Source: Thermoplasmatales archaeon
GTDB lineage: Archaea > Thermoplasmatota > E2 > UBA202 > JdFR-43
NCBI GenBank assembly: GCA_014361195.1
Contig: JACIWA010000009.1
Coordinates: 1-54,436 of the forward strand
Reading direction: 5' to 3'
Length of the DNA: 54,436 nucleotides
Part shown: piece by piece, positions 2,118 through 6,421 of the stretch
Numbering within the stretch: the stretch's first letter is position 1
Layout of the letters: the number at the start of each line of letters is the position of its first letter
Notes under the pieces: generated by a model
What the model was told of the DNA's origin: nothing
The model's input: the letters and a program-made list of their open reading frames with translations, nothing else
The model's database searches: none
Program-made: the position numbers and the translations under genes

Positions 2118-2828
2118 CTACAAAATAGTTATTACAAATGCAATAAGGGCAACAATGGAGATTGATATCAAATTTACATCGCTGTTATTTAATATTGCAT
2201 CTGATGAATTTATTGCGCCTTTTCCTTTTCCCTGAAATGTTGCCCCAAGGAATGAATCAATATGGCATCCAAGAAATCCTAGTAAAACGCATAGAAAAAC
2301 CTGATATATATTTATTTTAACAAGAAAGTAAGCGGAAATTGAAATAATTAAAGCCCCAATGATACAAGCAATTTCTCCTAAAAAAGAGATAGCTCCATTT
2401 GTTCCAGGTGAAACTTTTTTGAAATTTGTTATCATATATGCTTTATCTGAAAAAACCCCTATTTCTGAAGCCATTGTATCTGAAAGGGCAACTGATATTG
2501 AAGCAACAAAAGGAATTGAAAGATCACTTTTTAAGTAAAAGGAAGATAATGCTATAAATGCGGGTATTATTCCATTCGCAATTACATTTGAAGCTTTTCT
2601 AGATTTTCTCTCAAGCAATCTTCTCTTTTTAAAGTCATGTCCATAGCGAGTTACGAATGCTCCCGCTACAAGAAAAATGAAAAGGAGAAAAAACCAGCCA
2701 AATCCTTGTGTAAGTACTATTGTTAAACCTATTCCGATCGCAGAAATTGCTCCTGTTAAATCAAGAACTCTTAAGTAAAATGAAAGAATGCCAAATATTA
2801 AGCATATTAAGATTTTTAAAAAAATCAT
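2118..2828 (-). CDS. DUF92 (TMEM19/VTE6-like) integral membrane protein
   Basis: A 236-residue, very hydrophobic protein with about six or seven membrane segments. Family signatures include the [15 protein letters not shown] segment, [27 protein letters not shown], and [14 protein letters not shown] near the C-terminus. The plant member VTE6 is a phytyl-phosphate kinase, so polyprenyl or phytyl phosphate phosphorylation is a reasonable guess; the archaeal substrate is unknown. Its start overlaps the stop of rtcB by 4 nt (ATGA), making it the last gene of an archease-rtcB-DUF92 unit. Translational coupling is clear, a functional link with RNA repair is not. It ends 9 bp from the convergent DUF362 gene. 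Confidence 0.8.
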
Positions 2829-4288
2829 CCTTTCACTACGCCCAATGGAACCATTCTTGCAACTTTTAATGATAGCCCTGCTCCATGGGTGGCATTTACA
2901 ACCATGCTTACATCTTTATATGCGTCTGGGCTTTCTTCTGCCATCACAACCATGCTTGCGGGATGAGCATATATTCCCTTTTCTTCCAGCATTTTTGCAA
3001 TTTCAGTGCCACGCCATCTCCTCTTTGCCTCTTCTCTTGACATAACCCTGCCCGCTCCATGGCATGTTGAGCCAAATGCCTCTTCCGCTTTTTTTGTCCC
3101 TTTAAGCAAGTAGCTCTCGCTTCCCATATCTCCTGGAATCAAAACTGGTTGCCCAATGCTTTGATATTTTGTAGGTATATCTGGACTATCTGGCCCAAAT
3201 GAGCGAGTTGCACCTTTCCTATGAACACATACTCTCATTTTCTTTCCATCCACTTCATGCTCTTCAATTTTTGCTATATTATGGCAAACATCATAAACTA
3301 TTTTCATCCCTAAATCTCCCGCATCTTCCTTGAATACTTTTTCAAAAGATTGGCGAACCCAGTGCACAATCATCTGCCTGTTTGCCCATGCAAAATTTGC
3401 AGCGCAGGCCATGGCTTTAAAATATTGCTCTCCTTCCCTGCTTTTTAGAGGGGCGCAGGCGAGCTGGCGGTCTGGCAACTCTATTTTATATTTCCTTACC
3501 GCCTGTTCGAGCACATGAAGGTAATCAGTGCATATCTGATGGCCACAACCTCTTGAGCCAGTATGAATCATTACAACAATTTGATTTTTCTCAATTCCAT
3601 AAATTTTTGCTGCATTTTCATCAAATATATCTTCAACTTTTTGAATTTCTAAGAAATGATTTCCTGCTCCAAGGGAACCAACCTGACTCATCCCTCTTTC
3701 CTTTGCTTTATCTGAAACCGCATCAGAGCTTGCTTCTTCCATGCAGCCATTCTCTTCTAAATATTCCAAATCCTCTTCCCATCCATAACCATTTTCAACC
3801 GCCCATTTTGCCCCCATTTGTAAAACATCATCAAGCTGTGATCTATTAAGCTTTACTTTTGCCTCACTCCCTACTCCAGAAGGAATATTTTTGAATAGCT
3901 CATCTGTCAGCTCTCTTATTATATTTTTGTTTATCCGCTCAACTTTGATATCTGTCCTCACCAACCTTACACCACAATTTATATCAAATCCTACCCCTCC
4001 AGGAGATATCACTCCTTCTTCATATTCTGTAGCTGCCACCCCTCCTATCGGAAAGCCGTAGCCCCAATGTATATCTGGCATTGCAAGAGATTTGCCAACT
4101 ATTCCTGGGAGTGTTGCAACATTTGCGGTTTGCTCCGGGGCATTATCCTTTCTTATAGAAGGAAGCATTTCAGGCAATGCATAAATCATTCCTGGAACTT
4201 TCATATTGAGTTTTCCATCTATTCCCTTATAGCTTTTCGGTATTTCATATCTATAATCGTCTATTTTATTTAATGGTCCGTTCCACAT
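2825..4288 (-). CDS. rtcB: RNA-splicing ligase RtcB
   Basis: Joins 2',3'-cyclic phosphate (3'-phosphate) and 5'-OH RNA ends using GTP and metal. In archaea it seals tRNA exons after intron removal. All hallmark residues are present in a 487-residue protein of normal length: Asp102 and Cys105 in GFDINCGVR, His211 in [10 protein letters not shown], His242 in [10 protein letters not shown], His336 in VCHN, and the guanylylated His410 in [12 protein letters not shown]. There is no intein. ATG at 4288 is preceded by a GGTGA ribosome binding site. The archease gene ends 9 bp upstream on the same strand, matching the known pairing in which archease activates RtcB and helps its guanylylation. It overlaps the DUF92 gene by 4 nt. 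Confidence 0.97.
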
Positions 4289-4297
4289 TTTCTCACC

Positions 4298-4705
4298 CTA
4301 AATATCAAACAATACCCTAATAACAAAACCTTTTTTATTTCTTTTTATCTCCAGCATATGATATGTTACCGCTTTTATCTCTATTCCATAACCATGCTTT
4401 GATCTATCATATTTTTCTCCATATGCAATCGCTTCCAATTTATCATTTATCTTTACCTTGAAATCTCCAAAGACAAGTTTTTCAACATCATGCAAATAAA
4501 TGAGTTCTGAAAGCCAATCAACTAGAAGCATTTCATCGTCTCCTTCGCGATTTATTTCTATTTTTTTCTCTATTTTTCCCTCAATTTTCTCTCCATTTGT
4601 TATTATTGAAAACATTCCCTTTGCGGTATTTTCAAATGCTTCTTCAAGAGTTTTTCCATATGCCTCTATTCCAATGTCTGCGGTATGATCAATTATTTTA
4701 TACAC
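4298..4705 (-). CDS. Archease, activator of RtcB
   Basis: A small acidic protein of 135 residues that matches archease throughout. The N-terminal metal-binding signature DHTADIGIEAYG sits at residues 7-18, followed by LEEAFENTAKGMF, the LVDWLSELIYLHD helix, and the C-terminal KAVTYHMLEI strand. Archease accelerates RtcB guanylylation and broadens its nucleotide use. The gene is first in the unit, directly before rtcB. The start appears to be GTG at 4705; an ATG two bases away is in another frame. A TATA-like element about 22 nt upstream suggests a leaderless transcript. Confidence 0.95.
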   Translation of the reverse strand: MYKIIDHTADIGIEAYGKTLEEAFENTAKGMFSIITNGEKIEGKIEKKIEINREGDDEMLLVDWLSELIYLHDVEKLVFGDFKVKINDKLEAIAYGEKYDRSKHGYGIEIKAVTYHMLEIKRNKKGFVIRVLFDI

Positions 4706-5318: not shown

Positions 5319-6287
5319 ATGTTTGTATCTGCTGGGGATTTAGAAAAATATGCCTATTGCCCTCTTTCCTGGTGGCTGAGCAGGGAGCATAAGACAACCT
5401 CTGCTGAAGGAGTAAGAAGAGATAAAGAAATAAAGAACGAGATTTTGGAGATAAAGGAAAAAGAGGAAAAAATAAAGTTATATAATCTTATTACAACATT
5501 TTTTTCAGTATCCGCTTCAATAGTTGCAATTCTTGGGATAATATTTTTATATTCAAAACTTGAAATGGTATGGCTGTATCTTTTCCTGATAATTTCCTTG
5601 CTATGGCTTTTTAACTCTTCCTTATTTTTTTATAAATCCCTCAAAACAATAGATGCAATAAGGCCTTATTATGAAAAAATAGTTCTAATATCTTCAATAA
5701 TAGCAATAATTGTTGCATTATTTGCCATATTTTTTTTCTTCCCAAAAAATGAAAATTTTAGCAGATTTTTAGAAATATTAGCTCTTTTCTGGATAATTTC
5801 TGCGAATATATTCTTTTATAGAACATTAGCTTTTTCTGAAAAAATTATTGAAAAGAAAATAAAGTATATGCCATTAAAGGGAGAAATTGTATATGTTGGG
5901 AAAGATAAGCCATCTGAGGAATTAATTTCAAAAAATTATGGAATAAGGGGAACACCTGACTACATAATAAAAATAGATGATGATTATATACCTATTGAAG
6001 AAAAATCCTGCATATTAAATTACCCTCTTCTCCATCATGTAATACAATTGATGGCATACTGCATTATTGTTGAAGAAAATTATGGAAAAACTCCTTATGG
6101 CATTCTTCGCTACACTGGAAAGGAATTTAAAATACCCTATGAAGAAAGATGGAAAAATAGAGTAATCGATTATGTAAATGCAATGAAAAGAGACATTGAA
6201 AGGAATGAAGCTCACAGAAACCATAACAAAAAAATAAAATGCTCAAACTGCTTGCGAAGAGAGTGGTGCCCAGAAAAACTCGATTAA
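5319..6287 (+). CDS. Membrane-embedded Cas4/RecB-like (PD-(D/E)XK) nuclease
   Basis: The two ends look like Cas4/Dna2-type nucleases. Residues 3-20 hold VSAGDLEKYAYCP with Cys14. Residues 186-322 contain GTPD (Asp214), the IEEK motif (Glu227/228, Lys229), QLMAY (Gln243, Tyr247), and a C-terminal CSNCLRREWCP (Cys308, 311, 317). The four cysteines match the Fe-S set that ties the ends together in Cas4 and Dna2. Between them, residues ~57-168 form four hydrophobic segments arranged as two hairpins, which a soluble Cas4 lacks. The usual motif I histidine seems replaced (SAEGVRRDKE). No CRISPR array or other cas gene is in the window. A DNA-processing role at the membrane is inference; substrate and polarity are unknown. 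Confidence 0.75.
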   Translation: MFVSAGDLEKYAYCPLSWWLSREHKTTSAEGVRRDKEIKNEILEIKEKEEKIKLYNLITTFFSVSASIVAILGIIFLYSKLEMVWLYLFLIISLLWLFNSSLFFYKSLKTIDAIRPYYEKIVLISSIIAIIVALFAIFFFFPKNENFSRFLEILALFWIISANIFFYRTLAFSEKIIEKKIKYMPLKGEIVYVGKDKPSEELISKNYGIRGTPDYIIKIDDDYIPIEEKSCILNYPLLHHVIQLMAYCIIVEENYGKTPYGILRYTGKEFKIPYEERWKNRVIDYVNAMKRDIERNEAHRNHNKKIKCSNCLRREWCPEKLD

Positions 6288-6331: not shown

Positions 6332-6421
6332 GGGCGTGTGGCCTAGCTAGGATAGGGCGGCAGCCTCCTAAGCTGCAAGCCGCGGGTTCAAAAGCGCAAG
6401 CTGAAAATCCCGCCACGCCCG
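6332..6421 (+). tRNA. tRNA-Arg (anticodon CCU) with a 15-nt T-loop insertion
   Basis: The acceptor stem gggcgtg pairs with cacgccc, with discriminator G and no encoded CCA. The D arm is regular. The anticodon stem gcagc/gctgc closes the loop ctcctaa, giving anticodon CCT, which reads AGG. The T stem gcggg/cccgc is intact, but its loop is 22 nt instead of 7. The normal ttcaaat appears split by about 15 nt (roughly 6402-6416) containing agc-gcaa-gct, a potential GNRA-capped hairpin. A non-canonical intron is possible, but I could not draw a standard bulge-helix-bulge. An AT-rich element near 6303-6311 may be its promoter. Confidence 0.85.

Follow-up and report, generated by a model that had tools for sequence, protein, structure and literature searches.

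Background

Introns with a bulge-helix-bulge (BHB) motif in the T arm of tRNA genes have been reported from Thermoproteales, Aigarchaeota and Asgard archaea (PMC4033280, PMC3293823, PMC11291895). An earlier note on the present DNA had mentioned T-loop introns for some Thermoproteota. According to a 2014 review, Euryarchaeota have mostly alpha4 or alpha2 splicing endonucleases and tRNA introns at the canonical position only, and both enzyme types are strict to a BHB at that position (PMC4090602). The A. fulgidus enzyme is described as confined to canonical BHB substrates (PMC12397907), while homodimeric endonuclease forms are held to be able to cut BHL-like motifs as well (PMC8707768). The Micrarchaeota include ARMAN-2, whose epsilon2 endonuclease is broadly specific (PMC6379350). 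A mobile-element model of tRNA intron gain has been proposed for Caldiarchaeum subterraneum (PMC3293823).

The tRNA-Arg(CCU) gene described here lies in a window of 54,436 nt (the whole stretch of DNA that was analysed) and very probably contains a BHB-type pre-tRNA intron of 15 nt at position 59/60. Like the non-canonical introns reported previously, this putative intron is short, has a BHB motif and is located in the T arm. Unlike the reported T-arm cases, the host belongs to an order of the Thermoplasmata and all seven such introns found in its genome are at 59/60, and the predicted endonuclease is of the alpha'2 type as opposed to the (alpha-beta)2 or epsilon2 enzymes of the reported non-canonical intron systems. 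The kind of intron is already known; the host and the number are unexpected.

Structure of the tRNA-Arg(CCU) gene

All stems of the gene are intact, including the acceptor stem (GGGCGTG/CACGCCC), the D stem (GCCT/GGGC), the anticodon stem (GCAGC/GCTGC, with CCT at 6367-6369) and the T stem (GCGGG/CCCGC), while the T-loop comprises 22 nt (6387-6408, TTCAAAAGCGCAAGCTGAAAAT). The earlier note had described both the stems and the loop correctly, as well as the 15-nt length of the insert. It had placed the insert at 6402-6416, about nine bases away from its actual position of 6393-6407, and the AGC-GCAA-GCT stem and loop that it saw there is real and is located at 6393-6402. The unmodified gene had no match in ARAGORN or in Rfam at the gathering score. 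ARAGORN reported a tRNA-Arg(CCT) after the 15 nt were deleted, and a standard tRNA was restored only by this removal. An intron at the canonical position (37/38), one base 3' of the anticodon, was ruled out as the insert is at 59/60. The features of the locus are as follows.

6332-6421, plus strand: tRNA-Arg(CCU) precursor gene, 90 nt, stems all intact, called by ARAGORN as tRNA-Arg(CCT) once 6393-6407 is removed
6332-6392, plus strand: 5' exon ending TTCAAA (T54-A59), aligned without gaps to intronless orthologues up to its last base
6387-6390, plus strand: 5' strand TTCA (T54-A57) of the predicted BHB central helix, pairs with 6402-6405, position 57 covarying in 161 introns
6391-6393, plus strand: 5' bulge AAA (sequence), predicted cut 6392/6393 by the known BHB rule
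6393-6407, plus strand: putative 15-nt intron at position 59/60, AGCGCAAGCTGAAAA, exactly the bases missing in the G010, G015 and G016 orthologues, its limits subject to the register ambiguity of an A run
6402-6405, plus strand: 3' strand TGAA of the predicted BHB central helix, inside the intron, pairs with 6387-6390, covariation at position 57
6406-6408, plus strand: 3' bulge AAT (sequence), predicted cut 6407/6408 by the known BHB rule
6408-6421, plus strand: 3' exon from T60, from the sequence and the orthologue alignment

A single Arg(CCU) gene was found in the genome of the window, the assembly of which is 96% complete, and a second one could be absent from it. The search for another tRNA reading AGG, which the earlier note had proposed, returned no second Arg(CCU) and only a tRNA-Arg(UCU) (C6:46963-47037), for which wobble reading of AGG is conceivable. 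A gene for a PD-(D/E)XK or Cas4-like protein with apparent membrane segments is located immediately upstream of the tRNA gene (5319-6287, plus strand).

Bulge-helix-bulge motif

The T-loop reads in order TTCA, the bulge AAA, GC GCAA GC, TGAA and the bulge AAT, so that TTCA and TGAA form the helix of an exact motif of 3-nt bulge, 4-bp helix and 3-nt bulge. Cuts between nucleotides 2 and 3 of the bulges would release the 15 nt AGCGCAAGCTGAAAA and leave a 7-nt loop, TTCAAAT. The statement that no standard BHB could be formed was therefore mistaken; the small non-canonical intron that had been offered as one option is strongly supported as an intron, with a canonical motif and only its position non-canonical. 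The inner helix of the intron is only 2 bp, and the minimum-energy structure from unconstrained RNAfold had a different small hairpin in place of the BHB, with an advantage of 2.3 kcal/mol at 37 C. The case for the intron therefore rests on comparison and not on energy.

The intron might be real and yet have its cuts in a different register, or be processed as a relaxed substrate of the bulge-helix-loop type instead of a canonical BHB, and this we consider improbable. The A-rich junction permits registers with an identical product, the short inner helix would suit a relaxed substrate, and the 13-nt introns of Ala(CGC) and Leu(CAG) in the same genome have no clear inner helix. However, one register yields both the exact 3-4-3 motif and the 7-nt loop in Arg(CCU), and the endonuclease of this genome, when aligned with alpha'2 of A. 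fulgidus, lacks the extra residues that the engineered mutant 3P1Y has. These extra residues we take to be an ARMAN-type loop.

Comparison among orthologues

Exactly these 15 bases are missing from the alignment in three Arg(CCU) orthologues of the same family (G010, G015 and G016), and other orthologues have different introns at the same junction, of 30 nt (G001), 32 nt (G004, its alignment row being incomplete at the 3' end), 18 nt (G006) and, in further members of the family, 35-46 nt. Presence of the intron varied even inside genera: in g7 it was found in G011 and G013 and was missing in G015 and G016, and in g3 it was found in G003, G012 and G014 and was missing in G010.

Covariation was analysed, after removal of duplicates, in 59 introns of the order and 102 introns of other archaea, from which four bacterial matches of the genome-wide pattern scan, taken as chance, had been excluded. 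Position 57 and its partner in the intron were A-T in 18, G-C in 22, G-T in 4 and A-C in none of the 59 introns of the order, and A-T in 79, G-C in 12, G-T in 2 and A-C in 2 of the other 102; the Fisher p-values (1.4e-8 and 1.4e-11, respectively) are too small since related sequences are not independent. The rule that A pairs with T and G with C at this position holds for different tRNAs and phyla. An inner helix of at least 3 bp directly after the bulges was present in 21 of the 59 introns (shuffled mean 3.7) and in 49 of the 102 (shuffled mean 6.0). The motif was not always perfect, the fourth pair being G.A in 14 of the 59, and this, together with the hairpin preferred by RNAfold and the 2-bp inner helix in Arg(CCU), speaks against a spliced intron.

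That hairpin, AGC-GCAA-GCT, is the T-arm fold of lowest predicted energy and is what would favour retention of the insert in the mature tRNA as an extension of the T-loop. Such retention is very unlikely, as the hairpin is not conserved in close relatives, where the insert is missing or differs in sequence and length, whereas exon T54-R57 and the end of the intron have conserved their pairing. In addition, a T-loop of 22 nt would be expected to disturb its contact with the D-loop. A spliced intron, and neither damage nor a mature extension, is the most likely explanation of the insert.

Other T-loop introns in the genome

A pattern search with inspection located at least seven introns in the genome of the window, of 13-30 nt, and all that were found there were at 59/60. 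In addition to Arg(CCU), they are predicted in the following tRNA genes.

C2:65027: Lys(UUU), T-loop intron at 59/60
C2:114304: Ala(CGC), T-loop intron at 59/60, 13 nt
C2:114938: Pro(CGG), T-loop intron at 59/60, recognised by eye without an ARAGORN run, one T.G pair in the central helix
C2:165160: Leu(CAG), T-loop intron at 59/60, 13 nt
C6:56001: Ala(GGC), T-loop intron at 59/60
C8:26723: Asp(GUC), T-loop intron at 59/60

That the Arg(CCU) gene, missed as it is by standard tools, is a damaged non-functional copy or that its insert is an assembly error is hardly credible given undamaged stems, no further Arg(CCU) gene found, and the recurrence of inserts at this junction, both in independent genomes and in six further tRNAs of the genome of the window. 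No Ala(UGC), Arg(CCG) or Trp tRNA was found in the genome, and a directed search for Ala(UGC) returned other tRNAs only; these three may lie outside the assembly or be hidden by introns.

Several introns were shared between tRNAs of different identity. The Arg(CCU) and Ala(GGC) introns are identical at 13 of 15 bases, and one 13-nt intron sequence is common to Ala(CGC) and Leu(CAG). Across the order, 5 of 144 intron pairs from different tRNAs within a genome were at least 0.6 similar compared with 8 of 1989 between genomes, and only 2 of 2000 label shuffles reached five same-genome pairs; two entries in this test labelled 'Tyr?' seem to be Thr(CGU) genes that have an additional intron at 37/38, which leaves the counts unaffected. 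Different tRNAs of one genome in the order therefore share near-identical introns more often than tRNAs of separate genomes do, and T-loop introns may be copied between its tRNA genes. Similar introns in different tRNAs of one genome are also a feature of intron transposition in Thermoproteales (PMC4033280), while the introns here differ in being in the T-loop and in a euryarchaeal-type lineage. In G003 and G012 a tRNA read as Thr(CGU) seems to bear a long intron at 37/38 as well as a T-loop intron (L310, L313), the latter nearly identical to the Ala(CGC) intron of the same genome.

Distribution across archaea

Pattern matches were found in 14 of the 17 genomes of the source family and G013 was added separately, its 46-nt intron exceeding the length range of the pattern. 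All four genomes of a second family of the order (f2) had matches, and the one genome of a third (f3) had none. The 58 genomes of other orders in the class gave two matches, neither of which was a tRNA after removal. Cases were scattered in other classes of the phylum, with 7 of 12 tested loci giving a tRNA after removal.

Micrarchaeota were dominant among the matches listed from the genome-wide scan, which also included Bathyarchaeota, Asgard archaea, Woesearchaeota and others. T-loop introns ending GAAAA|T were abundant in Micrarchaeota and scattered in many archaeal phyla among these matches (L088-L204). The Micrarchaeota introns resemble those described here in junction, GAAAA|T 3' end and covariation, and differ from those of this order in sequence.

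Endonuclease and ligase genes

The splicing endonuclease of the genome is encoded by one 318-aa open reading frame with two PF01974 domains, its best match being the A. fulgidus enzyme (1R0V/2GJW, alpha'2), and it is predicted to be of the alpha'2 type, in which one chain has two fused EndA units. A single two-domain endonuclease frame is the rule across the class, so the idea that this order has another type was rejected, and a new type does not explain the T-loop introns. The genes for the ligase and archease are about 2 kb upstream of the tRNA, as had been noted before, and match PF01139 and PF01951.

2825-4288, minus strand: RtcB, tRNA-splicing ligase (PF01139, E 1.5e-183)
4298-4705, minus strand: archease (PF01951, E 1.6e-46)

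Their nearness is no evidence of a special link because the two proteins should serve in the splicing of every tRNA intron.

From the motif, the covariation, the exact absence of the insert in orthologues and the enzyme genes, we infer that splicing would proceed as follows. The T-loop bases T54-A57 of the precursor would pair with the TGAA close to the intron's 3' end, giving a helix of 4 bp between two bulges of 3 nt. The alpha'2-type endonuclease would cut both bulges after their second nucleotide, and RtcB and archease would ligate the exons to a normal tRNA-Arg(CCU) with the loop TTCAAAT. The six other introns at 59/60, the presence of the endonuclease, RtcB and archease genes and the finding of only one Arg(CCU) gene all support a spliced intron.

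A provirus in an orthologous gene

In G001, of the same genus, the Arg(CCU) orthologue is occupied by a head-tailed provirus (C4:16809-38898; L205, L206), which comprises about 22 kb and has genes for integrase, terminase, portal, major head protein and tape measure protein. It is flanked by two exact 75-bp repeats (C4:16809-16883 and C4:38824-38898), which extend from the anticodon loop as far as the first base beyond the tRNA 3' end and include the whole 30-nt intron, and the attachment core predicted from them spans the T-loop. The genome of the window matches both outer flanks and thus represents the empty site. The intron is in both copies, and the provirus may or may not have brought it. 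Relatives of the integrase in other genomes often adjoin the 3' part of a tRNA, there without an intron. Viral contigs gave no match for the intron-bearing attachment sequence and no relatives of the terminase or integrase.

A tRNA gene that is occupied by a mobile element and an attachment sequence that contains an intron recall the Caldiarchaeum model. The case in G001 differs from it in that a head-tailed provirus is the element and both repeat copies have the intron. It is conceivable, if doubtful, that proviruses whose attachment core reaches from the anticodon loop as far as the tRNA 3' end swap the host T-loop and its intron at each integration, with introns altering which elements integrate. 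The integrase frame appears to start inside the antisense tRNA repeat (L206:11320-11392; start putative), so that tRNA and intron would account for about 23 residues. The PD-(D/E)XK or Cas4-like gene is also found in G001, adjoining the provirus.

Conclusions

An order of the Thermoplasmata with many T-loop introns and an ordinary alpha'2 enzyme is unexpected against the view of one review (PMC4090602). The putative Arg(CCU) intron nevertheless fits even a strict view of BHB geometry, and as this geometry is strict and the position alone differs, it suggests that the endonuclease constrains the BHB motif rather than its place. ARAGORN and Rfam miss most of the unmodified intron-bearing genes, so genomes of this group can seem short of tRNAs. 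Introns common to several tRNAs, together with the intron-bearing repeat of a provirus, make the spread of tRNA introns testable.
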